Source: Hyphomonas sp. (GTDB taxonomy: Bacteria > Pseudomonadota > Alphaproteobacteria > Caulobacterales > Hyphomonadaceae). From it: a DNA stretch of 20,105 nt. The DNA lies in assembly GCA_024743015.1 (NCBI GenBank), contig JANSXJ010000015.1:1-20105 (forward strand). The letters are read 5' to 3'. The translations under genes were made by a program, and so were the position numbers. The notes under the pieces are model-generated. The model worked only from the letters and a program-made list of their open reading frames with translations, searched no databases and had not been told where the DNA came from. The stretch's first letter is position 1, and every line of letters begins with the position of its first letter. Of the stretch, positions 145 to 20,105 are shown piece by piece.

Positions 145-1578
145 ATGAACCTGACGGGAAACTTCTCTTGCGCGGCAGCAATGCTTCTCATCGTTGCGGC
201 TTGTGCGAGCGCGCCGCCGGCACCCGAGCGACCGGCGTTTACGGTCAAGGAAAGCGCATTCTCGACGACGAATACGAGCGGCATCGCCGCAAGCCCTGTC
301 ACGATGACCTGGTGGAAAACCTTTGACGATCCACTCCTGGATCAACTGGTGACCACTGCCCTCGCTGAAAACAAAGATCTCGCCGTTGCGGCAGCGAATA
401 TCGAGACGGCTCGCGCAGCGCTTGCGCGCCAGACGCTTCAAAGGTCTTTCTCGACAGATTCAGCTGCCAGCGCTGAACTTGGGCGAGCGGCACGAGACGG
501 CGCCAATACGGAACTGAGCGGAAGTGGACAGATCGGTGCCAGCTGGGAGTTCGACGCCGCTGGCGGCATATCGGCTGCCATTGACGGCGCGGTCTTTGAA
601 GTCGAGCAATTGTCAGAAATCCGGCGCGACGTTGCGGTCACCGTCGCAGCCGAAACAGCACTCGCTTATGTCGATTATCGCGGCAATCAGGTCCGGCTTA
701 GGGTAGCCCAGTCTAATGCCGAGCTACAAGGCGAAAGCCTCGAGCTTTTGAACGTATTGTTCGAAAATGGACGTGCCACACGTCTCGACGTTGAACGGGC
801 TGAGGCTCAATACCGCACGACGCTCGCATCCCTTCCCCTGCTGGAAATCGCCATCCGTTCAGCCGGGATAAGGTTGGCGGCTTTGACGGGTCGAACGGAC
901 TTTTCGGCTTCTGAGACGTTACTGCAACAGCCGGATATGCAAGTTGTCATTCCGTCTCCGCCTGAGAGTTTAGGCGTCGGGACGCCGCAAGATCTTATTC
1001 GCCGCCGACCTGACATTCGCGCCGCTGAAGCAGATATTGCCCGTCGATTGGCGCTGGGCGAGGTCGAACGCGCACGATTATTCCCAACACTGATGTTCAA
1101 CGCTGATCTGTTATCGCTCTTTACGGAAGACAATGCGAGCATTGACAGTTTCGGTTTCGGGATCGGTCCTGCCATCCGCTGGGAGGGTCCGGATCTTCGG
1201 CGTGTCCGCGGCGACATTGAGATCGCGGATGCCCAGACCCGCGCAGCCTTTGCCAATTATGAGCGCACGATCGTGGACGCCCTGCAGGAGATCGAAATCG
1301 CTCTGCTCTCCTATGGGCAAGAGCAGAAACGGCGTCCTGATCTGGAAGCGGCTGCAGATTCAGCAGCGCGCGCGCTCGACCTCGCGCGATTGCGATTTGA
1401 CGAAGGCCTTGATGACTTCTTAGATGTAATTGATGCTCAGCGCACATTGCTGGACGCACAAGATCGATTGGAAAGCAATCGCCTCGCAACAACCAGACAG
1501 GCGGTTGCTACGTATAGAGCTTTAGGCGGAATATGGGACGCTGAGGTGTTCGCACCTGCGACGCCGGAAAGTGAGTAA
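145..1578 (+). CDS. RND efflux outer-membrane channel lipoprotein (OprM/NodT type)
   Basis: This 477-residue protein has the usual length of the TolC/OprM family. The N-terminus is a lipoprotein signal: a hydrophobic core (AAMLLIVAAC) ends in a lipobox with Cys20 as the predicted acylated residue. The W56-W57 segment followed by DPLLDQLV is typical of the first outer-membrane efflux (OEP) repeat. The second repeat begins around the RRRPDIRAAEADIARR segment (about 286-301), a hallmark of the NodT subfamily. The protein should form the trimeric outer-membrane and periplasmic tunnel for the adaptor and pump encoded next. Its stop overlaps the adaptor's GTG start by 8 bases, so the two are translationally coupled. 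No clear Shine-Dalgarno precedes this ATG, but the signal peptide supports the start. The exported substrates cannot be read from sequence. Confidence 0.93.
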   Translation: MNLTGNFSCAAAMLLIVAACASAPPAPERPAFTVKESAFSTTNTSGIAASPVTMTWWKTFDDPLLDQLVTTALAENKDLAVAAANIETARAALARQTLQRSFSTDSAASAELGRAARDGANTELSGSGQIGASWEFDAAGGISAAIDGAVFEVEQLSEIRRDVAVTVAAETALAYVDYRGNQVRLRVAQSNAELQGESLELLNVLFENGRATRLDVERAEAQYRTTLASLPLLEIAIRSAGIRLAALTGRTDFSASETLLQQPDMQVVIPSPPESLGVGTPQDLIRRRPDIRAAEADIARRLALGEVERARLFPTLMFNADLLSLFTEDNASIDSFGFGIGPAIRWEGPDLRRVRGDIEIADAQTRAAFANYERTIVDALQEIEIALLSYGQEQKRRPDLEAAADSAARALDLARLRFDEGLDDFLDVIDAQRTLLDAQDRLESNRLATTRQAVATYRALGGIWDAEVFAPATPESE

Positions 1579-2683
1579 GATCAGTATGATACGGTCATTC
1601 TTGAGTATGGCACTCGTTGGCTTACTAATTGCGCTACCCGCCGCGGCGCAACGCGGCGGTCCAGCCAGTGTTTTCGCAGAACCCGTCACCGAACGGGAAT
1701 TTTCACGCGATATAGAAGCCCTGGGTACACTCGAACCAAATGAGCAAGTCGACCTGTCGCTGAATGCATCAGATCGAATTACGGCTCTCTATTTTGACGA
1801 TGGCGAGCGAGTGAGGGAAGGTAAAACGCTTTTGTCCCTTGCCCAGCGCGAACAGCTTGCACTGGTCGAGTCGGCGGAAGCGGACGTTGAAGAAGCTGCG
1901 CGGCAATTGGAACGGATTTCGCGGCTTGCAGCTGCCGAAGCTGTTTCTCAGTCCGAACTGGACAGCGCGCGGCGCGATCTCGACAGCGCGGAAGCGAATT
2001 TACGGGCGCTGCAATCACGCCAGAAAGATCGCGTTCTGGTCGCGCCTTTTGATGGCATTCTCGGATTTCGACGCGTAAGCGTTGGATCATTCGTGCGCCC
2101 CGGCGATGTCATCGCCACATTGATCGATGACAGCGAAATGAACCTGGATTTTGACGTGCCGTCTATTTTCACACGCTCGATTCAGCCTGGAACGACCATT
2201 ATCGCGCAGACTGATGATTTGCCGGGCGACACGTTCACGGGCGAGATTGAAACGCTCGACAATCGCATTGATCCGGTCACACGATCGATCAGGGCGCGCG
2301 CGACCATACCGAACCCCGAGCGCCTATTGCGCTCCGGTATGTTTATGCGGGTGTCGGTGATTGCAGAGCCGCGGACCAGCCTGGCCGTGCCGGAATCTGC
2401 CGTGCAACCTGTCGGCCCGCGAACATTCGTTTGGCGCGTAACGCCAGAGAGCGACGTCCTGAAAGCGCGCCGTGTCGAAGTTCAACTGGGACAACGCGCC
2501 AATGGCTATATCGAAGTCCTTTCAGGTCTGGCGGCAGGCGATCAGGTCATCACTGAAGGCATCATTCGTGTTCGCGAAGGGTCTGAACTCAAAGTAGAAG
2601 ACAAGCGCCTGCTCGACCCTGGAGGTGTAGTGGCAAGCAGCGGACCAAACTCGGGGTCCGCCTCTTTCGGCGCATCTAATTAG
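1571..2683 (+). CDS. RND efflux periplasmic adaptor (membrane fusion protein)
   Basis: This 370-residue HlyD/AcrA-type adaptor links the inner-membrane pump to the outer-membrane channel. A Sec signal peptide covers residues 1-26, with cleavage likely after ALPAAA. There is no lipobox Cys, so it is probably soluble or peripherally bound. Two lipoyl half-motifs (about 58-92 and 153-186) flank an alpha-helical hairpin (about 93-152, rich in Glu, Ala, Arg and Leu). Beta-barrel and membrane-proximal domains follow, including the typical ETLDNRIDPVTRSIRARA and GMFMRV segments. The start is GTG at 1571, overlapping the channel gene. An in-frame ATG at 1586 also leaves an intact signal peptide, so the exact start is not certain. 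A strong ribosome site for the pump gene lies just after the stop. Confidence 0.93.
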   Translation: MSKISMIRSFLSMALVGLLIALPAAAQRGGPASVFAEPVTEREFSRDIEALGTLEPNEQVDLSLNASDRITALYFDDGERVREGKTLLSLAQREQLALVESAEADVEEAARQLERISRLAAAEAVSQSELDSARRDLDSAEANLRALQSRQKDRVLVAPFDGILGFRRVSVGSFVRPGDVIATLIDDSEMNLDFDVPSIFTRSIQPGTTIIAQTDDLPGDTFTGEIETLDNRIDPVTRSIRARATIPNPERLLRSGMFMRVSVIAEPRTSLAVPESAVQPVGPRTFVWRVTPESDVLKARRVEVQLGQRANGYIEVLSGLAAGDQVITEGIIRVREGSELKVEDKRLLDPGGVVASSGPNSGSASFGASN

Positions 2684-2694
2684 GAGGGTCAGTC

Positions 2695-5600
2695 ATGCTG
2701 CTCTCTGATACCGCGGTCACGCGCCCGGTCTTCGCATCCGTGATTGCGCTCATCCTGGTTGTTCTTGGCATAGTCGCATTTGATCGGCTGTCTTTGCGGG
2801 AATACCCAGACATTGATGCCCCCATTGTGACCATAGACACACGCTATGCCGGCGCATCGGCGAGTGTGGTGGAAACGCGCATCACGCAGATCATCGAAGA
2901 CCGCATCGCTGGCGTTGAAGGCATTCGGTTCATCAACTCCAACTCGCGCGATGGTCGCTCGAGCATTTCAATCGAGTTCGGCGTCAATCAGGATATCGAT
3001 GTCGCCGCAAACGATATTCGCGATCGGATCTCCGGCGTGCTCGACAACTTGCCCGAAGAAGCCGATCCGCCTGAGGTCGAAAAAGCTGACTCCAATGATG
3101 ACGTGATCATATGGCTCAATCTCGCAGCGGAGAACCTCACCACACCTGAAATTTCCGACTATGCCGAGCGCAATCTTGTCGATCGCTTTTCCGCTCTGGA
3201 CGGCGTCGCCCGAGTCCGCGTCGGCGGGTCCCGAAATTACGCCTTGCGGGTGTGGATCGACCGACGCGCTCTGGCGGCGCGAAACCTGACGGTCAACGAC
3301 CTCGAACAAGCTTTGCGTCGTGAGAATATCGAAGCGCCCGCAGGCAGCATTGAATCTGACACGCGCGCCTACACCGTCCGGATTGACCGGGCGTTTCAGA
3401 CTCCCGAAGACTTCGCAGGTCTTGTCGTGGCAGAGGGGCAAGACGGCTATCTCGTACGCCTCGGCGATGTCGCACGCGTTGAGCGCGGAACGGTGGAAGA
3501 CCGAAACATGTTTCGCGGCAATGGCGTGCCAATGGTCGGACTGGGCATTATCAAACAATCCACCGCCAATACGGTCGACGTCGCAAACGCCGCTAAGGCT
3601 CTGGCCGATCAACTGAACGAGACGCTTCCGGATGGAGTGGTGATCGCCCGAAGCTTCGACAGTTCCGTCTTCATCTCTGCATCGATCCGGGAAGTCTATA
3701 CGACTCTCGCGATTGCCGTCGGGCTGGTGACCCTGGTGATTTTCCTATTCCTCGGCAGTGCCCGCGCGACGATAATCCCCGCGATCACAGTGCCCATCTC
3801 CATCATTTCCACGTTCATCGTGCTGTATGCACTCGGCTTCTCGATCAATTTGCTCACACTCTTGGCCATGGTGCTGGCCATCGGACTGGTCGTCGACGAC
3901 GCGATTGTCGTTCTTGAGAACATCTCGAGGCGTATGAAAGTGTATGGCGAAACACCACTCGTCGCGGCCTTCAAGGGCACGCGGCAAGTCGGTTTCGCCG
4001 TTATCGCGACGACCCTGGTACTGGTCGCCGTATTCGTTCCGATCACATTTTTACAAGGTGATATTGGGCGTTTGTTCACGGAGTTCGCGCTGACCATCTC
4101 AGCGGCTGTGGTGTTCTCGAGTTTGCTGGCATTGACGCTGACTCCGATGATGGCGTCCAAACTGCTCAGCCGCCCTGCAGACAAATGGACCATCGCGTCA
4201 TTTTTACCGCGTTTGGTTGACGGCGCCTTTGGCCTGATCAGGCGTGGATATGGTTGGATGCTGAATATTCTGATCCCACGTCCGCTGATCATGGCCATTC
4301 TGCTTTCTGGTCTGTTCGGGGCGACCTATCATCTCTCGCAATCGGTCACCGAAGAATATGTGCCGCGCGAAGATCGCGGCGCTTTCTTCGTTGTCGTGCG
4401 CGGTCCGGAAGGCGCGTCCTACAGCTATATGGAGCGCTATATAGACGAGATCGAGCGTCGTCTTTTGCCTTACACTGAAAGCCAGGATGGTAAGCCGCCA
4501 GAAGTGAATCGCCTGCTGTTTCGCGCGCCCGGATTCGGATCTTCTGCGTTCAACCAGGCCTTTATCATTGTCGTCCTGAATGACTGGAGCCAAAGACGAC
4601 CGGCCGACACGATTGTTGCAGAGGTCAATCGAAAACTCTCCGACTTGCCCGGGGTTCGAGGGTTTGCGCGAATGCGACAAGGTCTTGGAGGGGGAACCGG
4701 AAAACCGGTCCAGTTCGTGATCGGTGGGCCGAGTTATGAAGCACTTGTCGAGTGGCGCGACACATTTGTCACCGCGCTCGAAAACAGTGACCTCGGTCTG
4801 GTCGACATTGATTGGGACTACAAAGAAACACAGCCCCAATACCGTGTTAAAGTTGATTATGACCGCGCCGCCGATCTCGGTGTCACCGTGGCGGATCTCG
4901 GCGCGACCCTCCAAACCATGCTCGGTTCCAGGCGGGTCACGACTTATATTGAGAACGGAGAAGAGTATGATGTGATCCTGGAGGGCCTGCGATCCGATCA
5001 GAATAATCCAAACGATATCGAGAACATCTATGTCCGCTCGTCGCGCTCCGGTAGTCTGGTCCCATTGGCGAGCCTGATCAGCGTCGAGGCCCTGGCCGAC
5101 AGTCCAACTTTGAACCGGTACAATCGTGTGCGCGCAATCACGATCGAAGCCGGATTGGCCCCTGGAGTGTCCCTCGGCGATGCGCTCGATGGCATGCAGC
5201 TTATTGCGCGCGATGTCTTACCGATCGAAGCCACGATCGATTTCAAAGGTCAGTCGCTCGATTTCAAAACCTCCGGGTCGTCGATACTCTTTGTCTTCGG
5301 GATCGGTCTTGTCATTGTGTTTCTGGTCCTGGCGGCGCAGTTTGAAAGCTATCGTCACCCGATCATCATCATGCTCTGCGTACCCGCGACGTTGGCGGGT
5401 GGTTTATTCGGCTTGTGGTATACCGGGACCAGCATCAACATTTACACCCAGATCGGACTGATCATGCTGGTCGGGCTTGCCGCAAAGAATGGCATTCTGA
5501 TTGTCGAATTTGCCAATCAACTCCGCGATGAAGGCATGGCCTTTCAGGCCGCTATCAAACAAGCGTCCATGGATCGCCTCAGACCGATTGTGATGACAGG

Positions 5601-5832
5601 CCTGACAACCGCTGCGGGTACCCTGCCCCTTATTCTTTCCAGCGGCGCCGGTTCTGAGACCCGTGCGGCGATTGGCATTGTCATCTTGTTCGGCGTCATC
5701 GCCGCTGTCCTCGTTACGGTGCTTTTCGTCCCGACCGCCTATGCCCTGATCGCCCGTGGATCAGGATCACCAGGCGATGTCGCGCGGCGGCTGGAACTGG
5801 AATCCAACCAAGCGACCGTACCCGCAGAGTAA
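2695..5832 (+). CDS. RND multidrug efflux pump, HAE1 family (AcrB-like)
   Basis: At 1045 residues it has full AcrB-family length. It is the inner-membrane, proton-driven pump of the tripartite complex, expected to be trimeric with 12 transmembrane helices and two large periplasmic loops. The N-terminus (SDTAVTRPVFASVIALIL) is typical of the family. The proton-relay aspartates are present as D401-D402 in GLVVDDAIVVLEN (TM4), and the partner lysine is K931 in AAKNGILIVEF (TM10). A consensus AGGAGG ends 7 bases before the ATG. Periplasmic porter segments such as REYPDIDAP and the C-terminal TAAGTLPLILSSGAGSETR segment also fit HAE1 pumps. It is the last gene of the efflux operon. No TetR, MarR or two-component regulator is adjacent, so control is not evident here. 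Substrate range is unknown. Confidence 0.96.
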   Translation: MLLSDTAVTRPVFASVIALILVVLGIVAFDRLSLREYPDIDAPIVTIDTRYAGASASVVETRITQIIEDRIAGVEGIRFINSNSRDGRSSISIEFGVNQDIDVAANDIRDRISGVLDNLPEEADPPEVEKADSNDDVIIWLNLAAENLTTPEISDYAERNLVDRFSALDGVARVRVGGSRNYALRVWIDRRALAARNLTVNDLEQALRRENIEAPAGSIESDTRAYTVRIDRAFQTPEDFAGLVVAEGQDGYLVRLGDVARVERGTVEDRNMFRGNGVPMVGLGIIKQSTANTVDVANAAKALADQLNETLPDGVVIARSFDSSVFISASIREVYTTLAIAVGLVTLVIFLFLGSARATIIPAITVPISIISTFIVLYALGFSINLLTLLAMVLAIGLVVDDAIVVLENISRRMKVYGETPLVAAFKGTRQVGFAVIATTLVLVAVFVPITFLQGDIGRLFTEFALTISAAVVFSSLLALTLTPMMASKLLSRPADKWTIASFLPRLVDGAFGLIRRGYGWMLNILIPRPLIMAILLSGLFGATYHLSQSVTEEYVPREDRGAFFVVVRGPEGASYSYMERYIDEIERRLLPYTESQDGKPPEVNRLLFRAPGFGSSAFNQAFIIVVLNDWSQRRPADTIVAEVNRKLSDLPGVRGFARMRQGLGGGTGKPVQFVIGGPSYEALVEWRDTFVTALENSDLGLVDIDWDYKETQPQYRVKVDYDRAADLGVTVADLGATLQTMLGSRRVTTYIENGEEYDVILEGLRSDQNNPNDIENIYVRSSRSGSLVPLASLISVEALADSPTLNRYNRVRAITIEAGLAPGVSLGDALDGMQLIARDVLPIEATIDFKGQSLDFKTSGSSILFVFGIGLVIVFLVLAAQFESYRHPIIIMLCVPATLAGGLFGLWYTGTSINIYTQIGLIMLVGLAAKNGILIVEFANQLRDEGMAFQAAIKQASMDRLRPIVMTGLTTAAGTLPLILSSGAGSETRAAIGIVILFGVIAAVLVTVLFVPTAYALIARGSGSPGDVARRLELESNQATVPAE

Positions 5833-7461: not shown

Positions 7462-8202
7462 TCAACGAGAGTGAACGCTAAACTCTGGCAAACCATCCAG
7501 AGCTGATTTCAGCGCGGATCCCCAGGCCTCGGAGATGGCTGCGAACGTTGCGTCGGATTCTTCAATTCGGAATTCCGCGCCAGTTTCCAGTGAATTGGCT
7601 TCGTAAACGTGCACATCCAGCGGCATTCCGACGGACAGGTTCGCCCGCAAAGTTGAATCGAAGGACACGCACAGCAGACGAAGGGCTTGCTCGACGCTCA
7701 TCGCCGGATCGAAGGCCCGGAAGATGATTGGGCGTCCATACTTGGTCTCGCCGATTTGGAAGAACGGCGTCTCGGTGCTTGCTTCGATGAAGTTGCCTTC
7801 CGGATAAATCAGGAAAAGGCGCGGCTCCATGCCCTTGATCTGCCCGCCCATGATCAACGTCGCGCGAAACGCGGATTCAGCGTCCTGTCCTTCGTCGGCA
7901 TGGGCATTGACAACTTCGTTGAGCGTATCCGCGATCAGACGCGCCGCCTGGAACAGGGTCGGGACCTGCAGGAGCGTGGGGTCTCGTTCTTCCGGGGCTT
8001 TGGAGCGTTCATCCAGCAGGCTGACAACGGCTTGTGTCGTGGCGAGGTTACCAGCTGTCATCAAGGTAATCACACGCTCGCCGGGTACAGACCAGGTGAA
8101 CATCTTTCTGAAAACGGAAATATTATCGACGCCCGCATTGGTACGCGTATCAGACATGAAAACGAGATGATCGTTCATTTTCAGAGCTGCGCAATAAGTC
8201 AT
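7462..8202 (-). CDS. Anbu proteasome-like peptidase (ancestral beta subunit)
   Basis: This 246-residue protein belongs to the Ntn-hydrolase/proteasome beta family, in the bacterial Anbu branch related to HslV. The start MTYCAALK followed by FMSDTRTNAGVDNIS is diagnostic. After Met removal the nucleophile would be Thr2, with Asp18 and Lys33 at or next to the proteasome D17 and K33 positions. I chose ATG 8202 rather than an upstream in-frame codon at 8280 because only this start exposes Thr2 and because GAGGA lies 9 bases upstream. Structural work on Anbu shows open helical assemblies, and its physiological substrate is not established. The gene is last in the operon, 31 bases after the transglutaminase-like gene. 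It presumably acts on a product or tag made by the upstream enzymes, which is inference from conserved neighbourhood. Confidence 0.9.
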   Translation of the reverse strand: MTYCAALKMNDHLVFMSDTRTNAGVDNISVFRKMFTWSVPGERVITLMTAGNLATTQAVVSLLDERSKAPEERDPTLLQVPTLFQAARLIADTLNEVVNAHADEGQDAESAFRATLIMGGQIKGMEPRLFLIYPEGNFIEASTETPFFQIGETKYGRPIIFRAFDPAMSVEQALRLLCVSFDSTLRANLSVGMPLDVHVYEANSLETGAEFRIEESDATFAAISEAWGSALKSALDGLPEFSVHSR

Positions 8203-8233
8203 TCGGTCTTGTCCTCGCTTCGACCGACCAGCC

Positions 8234-9034
8234 CTATTGTTGAACCTGGATGGAGACAACCAAATTTTCCCGTCCTGCACCGACGGTCAGGCCTTTGGTT
8301 GGTGCGACATCAGCATAGTCTAACCCTTGAGCAATGCGGACATAGCGCTCATCCGGGCTGATGCCGTTCGAAACATCGAAACCGACCCAGCCAAGCCCAT
8401 CAAGGTAGACTTCACTCCAGGCATGGCTGGCATCCTGCGAGGTGCGGTCATCCATTAGCAGGTAACCGCTGACATAGCGTGCGGGAAAGCCCTTTTCGCG
8501 AACCACGCTGAGAAAGATGTGGCTGTGATCCTGGCAAACACCTTTTGCGTTTTCGAGCGCGTCACCAGCCGTTGTCGCGACACTGGATTGCCCGGTGACA
8601 TAAGTGACACGCTCACGGACCACCCGACTAAGCTCATGTAGCCCCGATAGCGTGTCCTCAGCAGGTAAACTGATCGAGTTGGCCAGATCACGCAAACCTT
8701 CTGTCATTTTGGTCAGGACCGATTGTCGGCGATAGAACCAGAGTGGCATGGCCTGCGCGTGCGCACCGAGGATCCCATCTGCGCAAAGCGTGTCCACCTC
8801 TCCTGAGACGCTGATTTCAAGCAATTGTGCGTCGGGAAGCACGCTGATGAGATCGGTTCTGTTTCCATGCTGGTCAATAAACTGGGCCTGCGTCCGCGCG
8901 CCGTCGAGGCTGACCTCCCATTCGAGCACAGTCTGCGCCGACGAAGACTGCGGCGAGGCGCGCAGTTGCAGCAAGCCATAGGAAGGCGGCTCGTCATAGT
9001 GAAATTGCGTTGTATGCTTGATCTGCAGGCGCAT
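8234..9034 (-). CDS. Transglutaminase-like cysteine peptidase of the Anbu operon
   Basis: This 266-residue protein has the two-part form usual for bacterial transglutaminase-like proteins. An N-terminal beta domain (about 1-80, starting MRLQIKHTTQFHYDEP) precedes the catalytic core. The triad is visible: Cys167 in GVCQDHSH, His204 in ASHAWSEVY and Asp220 in WVGFDVSNG. Such enzymes usually hydrolyse or transfer at amide bonds and are likely cytoplasmic here, as no signal peptide is seen. The ATG at 9034 lies one base after the alpha-E stop (TGA-T-ATG), indicating coupled translation. A longer frame to 9103 overlaps alpha-E and adds residues foreign to the family. The context suggests cleavage or modification of peptides made by the ATP-grasp enzyme. 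Confidence 0.92.
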   Translation of the reverse strand: MRLQIKHTTQFHYDEPPSYGLLQLRASPQSSSAQTVLEWEVSLDGARTQAQFIDQHGNRTDLISVLPDAQLLEISVSGEVDTLCADGILGAHAQAMPLWFYRRQSVLTKMTEGLRDLANSISLPAEDTLSGLHELSRVVRERVTYVTGQSSVATTAGDALENAKGVCQDHSHIFLSVVREKGFPARYVSGYLLMDDRTSQDASHAWSEVYLDGLGWVGFDVSNGISPDERYVRIAQGLDYADVAPTKGLTVGAGRENLVVSIQVQQ

Positions 9035-9035
9035 A

Positions 9036-9986
9036 TCAGCTCGCGAACCTGTAATCTTGCTCAATCTGGCTTGAAAGCGCAGCATTCCGGGCGATGAAAT
9101 CAATCAGAAACTCGTGCAATCCCGATCCGATGATTGCGTCGCTGTTCGAAGCCGTGATGTGGGCCTCGTGGCTGGCGGCGAGATCATGCGCGGGTGTACG
9201 ACGTCCATATTCGCGTTCCAGCGCCGACAGCGTCTCTATGATTTCGTCATAGCAATAGGCAATTGATCGCGGCAGGCGCACGTCGTGAATGAGGAATTCA
9301 ACAATCGCGGAGGGACTCATTTCTCCGCCATAGAGCCAATGAAACGATCGTTCCGCCGAGGCCGAGCGCAAGATCATTTCCCATTGAACGCGGTCTAGAG
9401 AGGATCCGACCGACGCGCTCGAGGGTAAGAGAACGTAGTATTTCGTATCCAGAATCCGGGCGGTATTGTCAGCTCGCTCAATCAATGCGCCCAGAACGGC
9501 AAATCGGAAAATGTCGTTGCGTAGCATTGTGCCATTGATGCTGCCGCGTACCAGCGCCGCCTGCTGCCTCACGGAGGAAAGCAGATCGGGCAAATCCGTT
9601 CGGTGCTTGTTTGCCTCACGATCACGTTTGAACTGGATCCAGATCTCATTGATCGCTTCCCAAACATCGCGCGTCAGCGCGGTACGGGTCATGCGAGCAT
9701 TCTCTCTCGCTGCGGCAATGGAAGAATAAAGACTACTCGGATTGTCCTTTTCCGCTACCAGGAAGTCGACTGCACCGCCTGTGTTGAACTGCTCATGACG
9801 TTGCAGATAAAGGTCCCGGGTTCCCGCCGTGGTCAGAACTGACTCCCACTCGCTTTCAGCGGTGCGCGCGCGCGTCAGCGACATTCGGAACCCGGCATCG
9901 ACCAGGCGCGCTGTGTTCTCGAACCGCTCCAGATATCGCATCATCCAGAACAGACCCGAAGCGGTTCGGCCCAGCATCTTATTCAT
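9036..9986 (-). CDS. Alpha-E domain protein
   Basis: This 316-residue, mostly alpha-helical protein has the characteristic N-terminus MLGRTASGLFWMMRYLERFENTARLVDAG. The alpha-E family (named for conserved Glu residues in helices) occurs almost always beside circularly permuted ATP-grasp genes. Comparative genomics predicts it as a partner in peptide or amide-bond formation, but no biochemical role is settled. Recurrent helix segments such as RADNTARILDTKYYVLL and YCYDEIIETLSALEREYG are visible. I prefer ATG 9986, which overlaps the upstream ATP-grasp stop by 8 bases. ATG 9977, three codons later, is nearly as good, and neither has a strong Shine-Dalgarno. A longer frame to 10019 seems unlikely. 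Confidence 0.88.
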   Translation of the reverse strand: MNKMLGRTASGLFWMMRYLERFENTARLVDAGFRMSLTRARTAESEWESVLTTAGTRDLYLQRHEQFNTGGAVDFLVAEKDNPSSLYSSIAAARENARMTRTALTRDVWEAINEIWIQFKRDREANKHRTDLPDLLSSVRQQAALVRGSINGTMLRNDIFRFAVLGALIERADNTARILDTKYYVLLPSSASVGSSLDRVQWEMILRSASAERSFHWLYGGEMSPSAIVEFLIHDVRLPRSIAYCYDEIIETLSALEREYGRRTPAHDLAASHEAHITASNSDAIIGSGLHEFLIDFIARNAALSSQIEQDYRFAS

Positions 9987-11409
9987 CGGAGAGCACCCAG
10001 GTATCTTTCGTACCCCCACCCTGGCTTGAGTTCACAACCAGAGACCCCGCTTCCATAGCGACACGCGTAAGTCCTCCGGGGACCACATCGATTGATTGCG
10101 GCGAGACCAGCACGAAAGGTCTCAAGTCGACATGGCGGGGCGCGAGACCAGCATCCGTGAGAATGGGCACGGTTGAAAGCGCCAAAGTCGGTTGCGCGAT
10201 ATAATTGCCGGGTTTCGCTTCGAGTTTCTTGCGGAAAGCTTCCAACTCTGCCTTGCTCGCTGCCGGCCCCACCAGCATGCCATACCCGCCCGAACCATGC
10301 ACTTCCTTGACCACCAGGTCTGAGAGATTGTCGAGGACATATTGCAAGGAAGACGGTTCCGAACATCGCCAGGTTTCGACATTCTTCAAGAGCGGTTTTT
10401 GTCCGGTATAGAACTCGATAATATCCGGCATGTAGGAATACAGTGCCTTATCATCTGAAATTCCGGTGCCGGGAGCGTTGGTGATCGTGACACCTCCGGC
10501 GCGATAGATGTCGAAGATTCCCGGTACGCCCAAGAGAGAGTCCGGATTGAAATTGAGCGGGTCCAGGTATTCATCATCGACACGGCGGTAGATGACATCG
10601 ATCGGCTCAAAGCCACATGTGGTGCGCATGCAGATGCGCCCATCGACGACTTTCAGGTCATGACCCTCGACCAGTTCCACGCCCATCTGATCCGCCAGAA
10701 AGGCATGCTCGTAATAGGCAGAATTGTGAATGCCCGGGGTCAACACCGCAATGGTTGGCTTTCCCGTACACGCCGCGGGCGCGGATGCCGCGAGCGCCTT
10801 ACGCAATAAGGATGGATAATCGCTGATCGTCTCTACGCCGACGCGCGAGAACAGTTCCGGAAACATCTTCAGCATCGTTTCCCGATTTTCAAGCATGTAC
10901 GAGACGCCGGAGGGCGTACGCGCATTGTCCTCAAGAACGAAAAACTCATTCGGCCCGGTGCGCACCAAGTCTGTGCCGACAATATGCGTGTAGATCCCAC
11001 CGGGCGGATCGACGCCAACCATCTGCGACAGAAACGCTTCGTTCTCCAAAATTAGCGCAGCAGGCACACGCCCGGCACGGAGGATTTCCTGACGGTGATA
11101 GATGTCGTGCAAAAAAGCGTTGAGCGCCTTGATCCGCTGCTCGATGCCTTTGGTGAGCATTCGCCATTCTTTCGCACTGATGATCCGAGGCAGCAGGTCA
11201 AATGGGATCAAGCGTTCTTCCGCATCGGCTTCGCCATATACGTTGAATGTGATCCCGGTTCGCCGAAAGAACTCTTCTGCTTTGTGCGATTGGCGCTTCA
11301 GCCGAGCCGGATTGATCTCGGAAAGCAATTGGTGAAACGCCTGGTACGGCGCGCGCACTTCGTTTCCATAGCCATGCATCTCGTCAAAGAAGTCATCACC
11401 ATCCGCCAT
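9979..11409 (-). CDS. Circularly permuted ATP-grasp enzyme (predicted amide ligase)
   Basis: This 476-residue protein matches the circularly permuted ATP-grasp type 2 family. Conserved blocks in order are FFDEMHG (7-13), VLEDNARTPSG (158-168), RRVDDEYLDPL (275-285), NAPGTGISDDKA (311-322), VVKEVHGSGGYGM (366-378) and SSQGGGTKDTWVL (461-473). ATP-grasp enzymes activate carboxylates as acyl-phosphates and join them to amines. This branch is predicted to make peptides or amide conjugates, but the substrate is unknown. It is the first gene of the four-gene operon. I chose ATG 11409. A GTG at 11424 adds five residues and has a distant GAGAG, so the start is uncertain by five codons. No confident promoter was found in the 192 bases upstream. 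Confidence 0.92.
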   Translation of the reverse strand: MADGDDFFDEMHGYGNEVRAPYQAFHQLLSEINPARLKRQSHKAEEFFRRTGITFNVYGEADAEERLIPFDLLPRIISAKEWRMLTKGIEQRIKALNAFLHDIYHRQEILRAGRVPAALILENEAFLSQMVGVDPPGGIYTHIVGTDLVRTGPNEFFVLEDNARTPSGVSYMLENRETMLKMFPELFSRVGVETISDYPSLLRKALAASAPAACTGKPTIAVLTPGIHNSAYYEHAFLADQMGVELVEGHDLKVVDGRICMRTTCGFEPIDVIYRRVDDEYLDPLNFNPDSLLGVPGIFDIYRAGGVTITNAPGTGISDDKALYSYMPDIIEFYTGQKPLLKNVETWRCSEPSSLQYVLDNLSDLVVKEVHGSGGYGMLVGPAASKAELEAFRKKLEAKPGNYIAQPTLALSTVPILTDAGLAPRHVDLRPFVLVSPQSIDVVPGGLTRVAMEAGSLVVNSSQGGGTKDTWVLSDE

Positions 11410-11601
11410 GCCCCCATCACGCACATCCGCTTAGCTCTCGCAAGGGGCGACACGTCAGAAGTGTAACCTATCCGTCGACTGCTCGAAGATTGGGCGGAAG
11501 AAATGGGTCGGGAGAGCGCAATGTGAGCTTCGACCGTCTGTTCGATACTCTTGGTTCATGAGCAAGCCCACTATCCAAACAGCATGGTGCGCTGCACTGG
11601 A
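11410..11601. other. Intergenic region between the MscS gene and the Anbu operon
   Basis: These 192 bases separate two genes that run in the same direction on the minus strand. I find no convincing hairpin with a T-tract after the channel gene and no clear -35/-10 pair before the ATP-grasp gene. The operon's own promoter most likely lies here, but read-through from the channel gene cannot be excluded. Confidence 0.5.
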
Positions 11602-18300: not shown

Positions 18301-19431
18301 CTAGCTCTTCAGGGGTTGCAACCCTTCACGCCTGATAAAGGTCAGCGCATAGATGGCGCAATAGATGGCGATCACGACGAGACCAATCCATTCAATCTTC
18401 CACGGCGTACACTGGTAGAGCAGGATCAGGCCGAACAAGAGCGACCAGTGGGCAAGGACGTAGCCTGGTCCACCGAGACGCTTAACCGTCAGGCCGAGGT
18501 TTTCAGAGTAAAGCCGCGTCAGAGAGTCGAGCGAATTGACGACAAAGATGACGCCCACCACGACCATGCTGAGCTGTAGACCGCCCGCCAGCGCGAGTGC
18601 CTCTGTGTGATAGAAATAAAGCACCGAGAACCACAGCGCGATCGGGATGGATGGCAGGATCAGCAATGCGAGCATCAATTGATACACACGCAGCCCCCCA
18701 ACGAAGCGGGCTACGAATTGGCCGATCATAATGCTCCACGCGAACCACCAGAACAGATAGAAAGCGTGATAATCCGAAAGCGGCTGGGTGAATTTTGGCA
18801 AGTTCGCGAAATAGCCGCCAATGTTCGCAGCGCTCTCAATGAGCCCAGTAAGCCCTGCTCCACTGCTGAGCCAGAGCAGTCCGATCAACCCAAAAAAGAC
18901 CGCACTCGAACCCAGGCCAAGCCATTTCACATAGCGAATGTCCGTGCTCGAAAGCACTGCGCCAAGAACCACAGCCGCGACCAGCCCGTATCGAAACCAC
19001 GGACTGATCCCCTCGATATAGGTCGGCAAATAGCTGAGGAATAAGAACCCCGTAAACGCACAGGTCGCGATGATGACAGCATTGTTGATCAGTTTGATCC
19101 AGCCAATCTCGAACAGTTTCAATCTGGGCTCGACGACGCAAAAGTAGAACGTCGTAAGGAAGTAGAAGCCCCATACCAAAAAGCCCCAAAACCCAAACTC
19201 AATCGCGAGCGCATTGGTGAAACCGTAAACCGGTTCGGACTCATAGACCGGGAATTCGGTGAGCGGAAACATGATCAGGCCAACATCAAGTCCGGATGTG
19301 AAGAGGATTGCGATAAAGGCCGTCAGCGGCAGCGGGTCACTTCCGTTCAGACGGACGCTTCTAAAGCGAAGGACCAGGATCACCGACGTCAACAGTGTAA
19401 CGAAAATCGCGATCGATAGGATGGTATTCAT
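18301..19431 (-). CDS. Short, divergent BCCT-family transporter paralogue
   Basis: A 376-residue membrane protein with about 11 helices. It aligns by eye with BCCT carriers but is shorter than their usual 500 or more residues. The family's Trp-rich block appears as [20 protein letters not shown], against FYWAWWISWSPFVGMFIARI in the adjacent canonical gene. The VTSADSG block corresponds to VNSLDSL. The TM3 Gly motif usually written GMGIGL is here GLDVGL. It seems to lack the first N-terminal helix and the long C-terminal tail of regulated BCCTs. It begins 6 bases after the stop of the canonical BCCT gene and ends 13 bases before betA, so the three are very likely one operon. It may transport a related substrate, work with its neighbour, or be a sensor. 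The frame is intact, so it is not an obvious pseudogene. Confidence 0.75.
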
Positions 19432-19437
19432 AGGTGC

Positions 19438-20105
19438 CTAATCGTCTGCCGTCGGCGTCACCACCTCGTCGCGCATACCGCGATACAGGCTGAGGCAACA
19501 AACCAGCAAAACCAACGTGAAAGGCAGAGCCGCCGCGATCGTCCCGGCTTGCAGCGACTCGAGTGCCGACGTGCCGCCGCCATATAATAGTGCCGAAGCC
19601 GTCAACCCAAGCATACAGGCCCAGAAGACACGTTGTGTGACCGGGGCGTCCGTCTTGCCACCCGATGTGATCGTATCAACGACCAGGGCTCCAGAATCTG
19701 CTGAAGTGACGATAAAAACAATCAACAACGCGATCGCGATGACCGAGGTGATCGTCGCGCCAGGCATCGCGGCCAGCATCTGAAACAGAACCGTCGCTGA
19801 GTTCACGATGCCGCCTGAGAGATCGCCTATCCCATTCTCATATTGGAAGACCGCCGTTTCGCCGAACGCGGAAAACCAGACGACACAGATCGTAAACGGC
19901 GCCAGCAGCACCACCGCGAAATACTCCCGCACGGTCCGACCGCGGGAGATGCGGGCAATGAACATGCCGACAAAAGGCGACCAGGAAATCCACCATGCCC
20001 AGTAGAAAATCGTCCAGTCATGAAACCAGCCAATATCTTCTCGACCGACCCAGTTTGTCAGCGCGGGCGTATCCCTGAGGTAGGCCACGAAATTCTCTCC
20101 CATAC
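19438..20105 (-). CDS. BCCT-family choline/betaine/carnitine transporter (partial, C-terminal part)
   Basis: About 222 C-terminal residues are visible; the frame stays open through the window edge, so the start lies beyond 20105. The signature GWFHDWTIFYWAWWISWSPFVGMFIARISRGRTVREY (split here across the family's Trp box and following helix) is unmistakable. VTSADSGALVVDTITSGG matches the later conserved block. The gene ends with LYRGMRDEV and a short acidic tail, so it lacks the long C-terminal osmosensing extension of BetP. BCCT carriers import quaternary ammonium compounds with sodium or protons. With betA downstream, choline is the likely substrate. Confidence 0.9.
   Translation of the reverse strand, partial: MGENFVAYLRDTPALTNWVGREDIGWFHDWTIFYWAWWISWSPFVGMFIARISRGRTVREYFAVVLLAPFTICVVWFSAFGETAVFQYENGIGDLSGGIVNSATVLFQMLAAMPGATITSVIAIALLIVFIVTSADSGALVVDTITSGGKTDAPVTQRVFWACMLGLTASALLYGGGTSALESLQAGTIAAALPFTLVLLVCCLSLYRGMRDEVVTPTADD

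Follow-up and report, generated by a model that had tools for sequence, protein, structure and literature searches.

Anbu has been placed near the origin of proteasomes (PMC5666114, in its available portions). The four-gene Anbu operon (found, for example, in Yersinia bercovieri) is credited to Iyer et al. 2009 and to Valas and Bourne 2008; its role is given as not known, and peptide-synthesis and degradation ideas have both been proposed (available portions of PMC6376114 and PMC5666114). A sequence-only reading of the DNA studied here had likewise called the gene set described but unexplained, and no later functional solution was found in the open-access literature among the matches listed. 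What, then, does such an operon do in the window, a whole Hyphomonas contig of 20,105 nucleotides? The window locus is a canonical, minimal Anbu-1 operon, an ordinary member of a known family and of a kind already published (PMC6376114 and PMC5666114, in the portions available). It consists of four intact minus-strand genes running from 11409 to 7462, in the order CP_ATPgrasp_2, Alpha-E, transglutaminase-like and Anbu, below a non-coding stretch:

11410..11601, no strand: upstream non-coding stretch, with a synteny end at about 11568 and the start of shared DNA at about 11424
9979..11409, minus strand: ATP-grasp amide ligase of the circularly permuted type-2 kind (476 aa from ATG; PF14403, 543 bits)
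9036..9986, minus strand: Alpha-E, internally duplicated and all-helical (316 aa; PF04168, 294 bits)
9690..9935, minus strand: Alpha-E repeat 1, with ERFENTAR (residues 18-99, by hhalign)
9222..9485, minus strand: Alpha-E repeat 2, with ERADNTAR (residues 168-255, by hhalign)
8234..9034, minus strand: transglutaminase-like Cys-His-Asp protein (266 aa; PF01841, 77 bits; PF08379, 56 bits)
7462..8202, minus strand: Anbu-1 proteasome-type Ntn hydrolase (246 aa; PF00227, 25.9 bits, and PDB matches)

All of these family assignments exceed curated Pfam cut-offs (for PF00227, 25.9 bits against 22.4), and together with PDB matches they bear out the gene identities proposed in the earlier reading; the catalytic residues that it had called intact are also present at the expected positions in the Anbu, transglutaminase and ATP-grasp alignments. 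At E 0.001, none of the four proteins matched an NCBIfam model, and PADLOC models for anti-phage defence gave 0 families for 4/4. The ATP-grasp gene starts at the ATG at 11409, with an in-frame GTG at 11424. Its 8-base overlap with Alpha-E, the 1-base gap from Alpha-E to the transglutaminase gene and the 31-base gap from there to Anbu are as first described, and this spacing suggests that the four genes would be expressed together; between 7300 and 11700, promoter-like sites (1 found, 1.9 expected) and terminator-like sites (5 found, 3.7 expected) were at chance level. Mean column identity is 80% for ATP-grasp, 63% for Anbu, 61% for Alpha-E and 57% for the transglutaminase, in alignments that are unlike in depth and make-up.

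The host genome (3.88 Mb in 585 contigs, 87.5% complete) has its nearest named proteins in Henriciella and other Hyphomonadaceae. It shares with the published operon the four families, their order and the catalytic residues, and no essential difference was found; in what is assembled, each gene occurs once and no match to DUF2126 or the sister system was found, although absence from this genome is weak evidence because the genome is incomplete. Elsewhere in the window, an RND efflux set (outer-membrane channel, adaptor and pump) lies to the left of the operon at 145-5832 on the plus strand, and two adjoining minus-strand ORFs at 18301-20103, one of them truncated where the contig stops, both show matches to the BCCT transporter family, with profile parts in odd order.

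How tightly are the four genes bound to one another? Of 61 relatives, 34 have Anbu, 42 have Alpha-E, 43 have CP_ATPgrasp_2 and 43 have a PF08379 protein; every one of the 34 with Anbu also has the other three, while eight (G038, G040, G044, G045, G046, G052, G053 and G054) have these three core genes without Anbu. The presence of Anbu is nested inside the distribution of the Alpha-E/ATP-grasp/PF08379 core. Within the genus, 19 of the 21 Anbu-bearing genomes have all four genes on one contig in the same order and the remaining two (G005 and G023) are cut by contig ends, so that the loss of association in close relatives, named earlier as a possible refutation, was not seen. The full order was recovered by coordinates in 29/34 Anbu-bearing relatives (G005 and G023 being cut by contig ends). 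In four (G030, G035, G056 and G060), Anbu, Alpha-E and ATP-grasp are accompanied by a divergent long transglutaminase frame of 1113-1152 aa, which is their only PF08379 match and, in the one checked (L046), contains DUF2126 by Pfam; a long DUF2126-type protein probably replaces the small transglutaminase in these relatives. Two further observations concern incomplete loci: G050 (L045) holds a core remnant, with ATP-grasp in pieces with stops, a partial transglutaminase and no Alpha-E match in the genome, and G005 (contigs C15 and C88) has, besides its cut operon, another Anbu match, a partial one of 54% identity, where C88 ends.

The link loosens further out, as in G034, where Anbu lies away from the core genes, and in at least 8 of the 69 Anbu genomes found in a Pseudomonadota sample (n=200). 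In that sample Alpha-E occurs in 112 genomes and accompanies Anbu in 68/69; the lone exception, G152 (L180), is also without a CP_ATPgrasp_2 match. Fisher values computed for this association take no account of common descent among the genomes. At L185, L186 and L191-L194, Anbu instead adjoins a long transglutaminase frame (DUF2126 was checked in L191). A GTDB scan supplied further Anbu loci from named genomes, of which the best 80 of more than 590 were kept, and the set is therefore mostly alphaproteobacterial. The plain four-gene order is present in 71 of these 80, which argues that the grouping is not due to chance; it comes with an extra transglutaminase hit in three (L087, L098 and L103), is cut by contig ends in three (L085, L113 and L120) and is truly broken in three (L099, L119 and L136). 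What parts Anbu from the core is a long transglutaminase frame of 1208 aa in L136 and apparently an entire sister operon in L119; in both, Anbu comes after a 273-aa frame containing a transglutaminase core (Pfam was run on the L136 frame). Trees of the four genes from 70 loci partly agree, which shows shared history and not more.

Does the operon bring along a gene for a tag? DNA matches between the window and relatives' loci are confined to 7462-11424 in 20/20, and the DNA that genus relatives with the cassette have in common with the window starts at about 11424, upstream of the operon. Cassette DNA identity to the closest genus relatives is 73.7-77.5% in four and 71.5-72.8%, in two pieces, in G022; the five closest have no neighbours in common with the window in the flanks compared. 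One genome that lacks every one of the four genes, G024, carries a mechanosensitive-channel gene 94% identical to that of the window, and its synteny with the window runs from about 16318 to about 11568, stopping about 35 bases past that gene; beyond it, where the window has the cassette, lies a gene that fuses a RimB-type protease to a RimK ligase (503 aa, L152:12060-13571). This difference could be a cassette gain in the window or a loss in G024. Across 99 loci, with ORFs of at least 90 aa, no other cluster occurs in more than 10 loci as a fifth gene; four larger clusters (13-23 loci) were rejected, as their representatives, on which the judgement was made, are antisense readings of the operon. 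Likewise, flanks of 1.2 kb (less in L054) around the cassette in the window and five genus relatives had no ORF of at least 20 aa in common, except for a short upstream stretch that L053 and L054 share. The four genes seem to travel as a unit, in changing chromosomal places. Because the shared DNA ends at the cassette edges, the neighbours vary and no small ORF travels along in the flanks searched, we conclude that no Pup-like tag gene appears to be carried and that a protein tag encoded with the cassette is unlikely.

The proteins themselves narrow the chemistry. Anbu has five distinct PDB sequence matches (5loy, 5nyj, 5nyf, 5nyw and 5lox; E 2e-82 to 2e-67), three named Anbu and two only 'Peptidase', and its identity is firmer from these than from the PF00227 score. 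Its T1, D17 and K32 are invariant in 13/13 aligned sequences, and Thr directly follows Met, as in Anbu-1 (Thr1, Asp17 and Lys32/33 without a propeptide). Against the Anbu-1 S1 pocket set of T20, F30, T48, L52 and S55 (PMC5666114, available portions), the first four are identical and T55 replaces S55; a Yersinia Anbu pocket is also named with T55 (PMC6376114, likewise). To call Anbu a self-compartmentalising Thr peptidase, as the earlier reading did, was too strong: the structures in print show open dodecameric or lock-washer rings, and standard substrates gave no peptidase activity (both papers, in the portions available), Anbu proteolysis as the end of the pathway being one published hypothesis among several.

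For the ligase, the closest PDB sequence is 3n6x (E 2.5e-186), and E160, N162 and K368, which we take to be the catalytic residues of the ATP/Mg site, are conserved in 41/41 aligned sequences. Among folds whose function is known, its AF2 model (pLDDT 78.2, pTM 0.84) comes closest to glutathione synthetases and glutathionylspermidine/YgiC ligases, at 9-14% identity. The transglutaminase has one partial PDB match (3isr, 118 residues, E 1.2e-11) and a Cys-His-Asp triad in PF01841, C167/H204/D220, presumably catalytic and invariant in 30/30 aligned sequences. According to the available portions of PMC6376114 and PMC5666114, the ATP-grasp protein releases phosphate, and a complex among the operon proteins was not detected.

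Alpha-E proves to be a duplication. Its halves align to each other with an hhalign score of 70.9, against at most 14.1 in 10 controls that include a reversed half, and residues 18-99 pair with 168-255, matching E20-R21 to E170-R171, E23-N24 to D173-N174, R27 to R177 and W47 to W202. E20, R21, R27, W47, E170, R171, R177 and W202 are conserved in 64/64 rows, E23, N24 and D173 in 63/64, and N174 in 52/64. The AF2 model (pLDDT 89.9, pTM 0.89) is all-helical, its two halves having helices of like length in matching order; our guess is that the motifs may meet in space. Against the PDB, a sequence search gave nothing significant and a profile search a best E of 1, with no match standing out, and no report of the duplication was found in the open-access literature among the matches listed.

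Three kinds of known system bear on what these proteins might do together. The sister operon (L051) has homologous ATP-grasp, Alpha-E and transglutaminase parts, but as a fused ATP-grasp-Alpha-E, a transglutaminase and a transglutaminase-DUF2126 protein: it differs in the ligase-partner fusion and an extra putative amidoligase, and Anbu is not part of it in that locus. Glutathionylspermidine synthetase/amidase, E. coli YgiC/YjfC and glutathione synthetases were compared with the window ligase by fold only, at the 9-14% identity given above; unlike glutathionylspermidine synthetase/amidase, the window has separate genes and adds Alpha-E and Anbu, and its Cys enzyme presumably belongs to a different family from that amidase. 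The Pup-proteasome system also combines an amide ligase with a proteasome-type hydrolase, but no Pup-like gene was found with the cassette in the flanks searched, and we take the Pup ligase fold to be unrelated to that of the window ligase.

The best explanation, to which we give about an even chance, is that this canonical minimal Anbu-1 operon makes and turns over a small conjugate. The ATP-grasp enzyme, with Alpha-E as its partner (the sister system has both in a single polypeptide), would activate a carboxylate as an acyl phosphate, which would be joined to an amine to yield a small non-ribosomal peptide or peptide-amine conjugate and not a gene-encoded tag; such a product is favoured by the glutathione-synthetase-like fold of the ligase. 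The transglutaminase-like Cys enzyme would hydrolyse or transfer the amide, so that ligase and amidase would form a pair like that of glutathionylspermidine synthetase/amidase. Anbu would be an optional later step, cleaving the conjugate or its carrier. The sequence-only reading had offered a tagging or small-peptide system; in view of the flank searches its tagging half, if cassette-encoded, is unlikely, and a metabolite-made conjugate fits better. Its version of protein tagging, in which ligase and transglutaminase mark proteins that Anbu degrades, could draw on the proteasome triad and Anbu-1 S1 pocket that Anbu retains, on the binding of proteasome inhibitors by P. aeruginosa Anbu (PMC5666114, available portions) and on the two amide-bond enzymes in one operon; we nevertheless consider it rather unlikely, given that no tag gene was found travelling in the flanks searched, that no recurrent fifth family emerged to serve as an unfoldase (99 loci, ORFs of at least 90 aa), that published assays were without peptidase activity (PMC6376114, available portions) and that an open ring is a weak compartment.

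The nesting of Anbu within the core's distribution is what an optional eraser would produce, as in the de-conjugation idea credited to Iyer et al. 2009 (PMC6376114, in part), where a protein or small molecule is decorated by the ligase and the decoration is taken off again by Anbu as a DUB-like isopeptidase or amidase; but the nesting fits any downstream role as well, and the transglutaminase already supplies an amidase, which leaves this idea improbable. Nitrogen scavenging, with amide turnover freeing ammonia or amino acids in nitrogen starvation, seems very improbable. Nitrogen limitation induces Anbu in P. putida (an observation that PMC6376114 and PMC5666114 cite); in marine metagenomes, the domains Bact_transglu_N, DUF403 and DUF407 group with those of urea metabolism (PMC3597751; all three sources in their available portions); and on the Acidithiobacillus caldus plasmid mpAca1.1 (L229), genes annotated as glnL and ntrC are found no more than about 5 kb from Anbu, an IS256 transposase lying in between; yet a sigma-54-like element is not enriched upstream of the operon (3/68 regions with at most two mismatches against 3.65 in shuffles; 1/68 with one mismatch against 0.2; none in the window).

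Taking the preferred small-conjugate reading further, we suggest, as a tentative possibility, that the cassette is portable and self-sufficient, both making and recycling a novel non-ribosomal peptide or peptide-amine conjugate, in which the two mirrored ER(F/A)(E/D)NTAR motifs of Alpha-E would form one site passing substrate between ligase and transglutaminase, and Anbu would be a conjugate hydrolase and not a protease. Beyond the published operon, the additions made here are a tag-less minimal cassette, a nested distribution and a duplicated Alpha-E. A tag-less minimal operon in a genome without a detected sister system is a clean place for comparative metabolomics on its product and, because Anbu is nested within the distribution of the core, the search for that product should begin with the ligase and not with Anbu.
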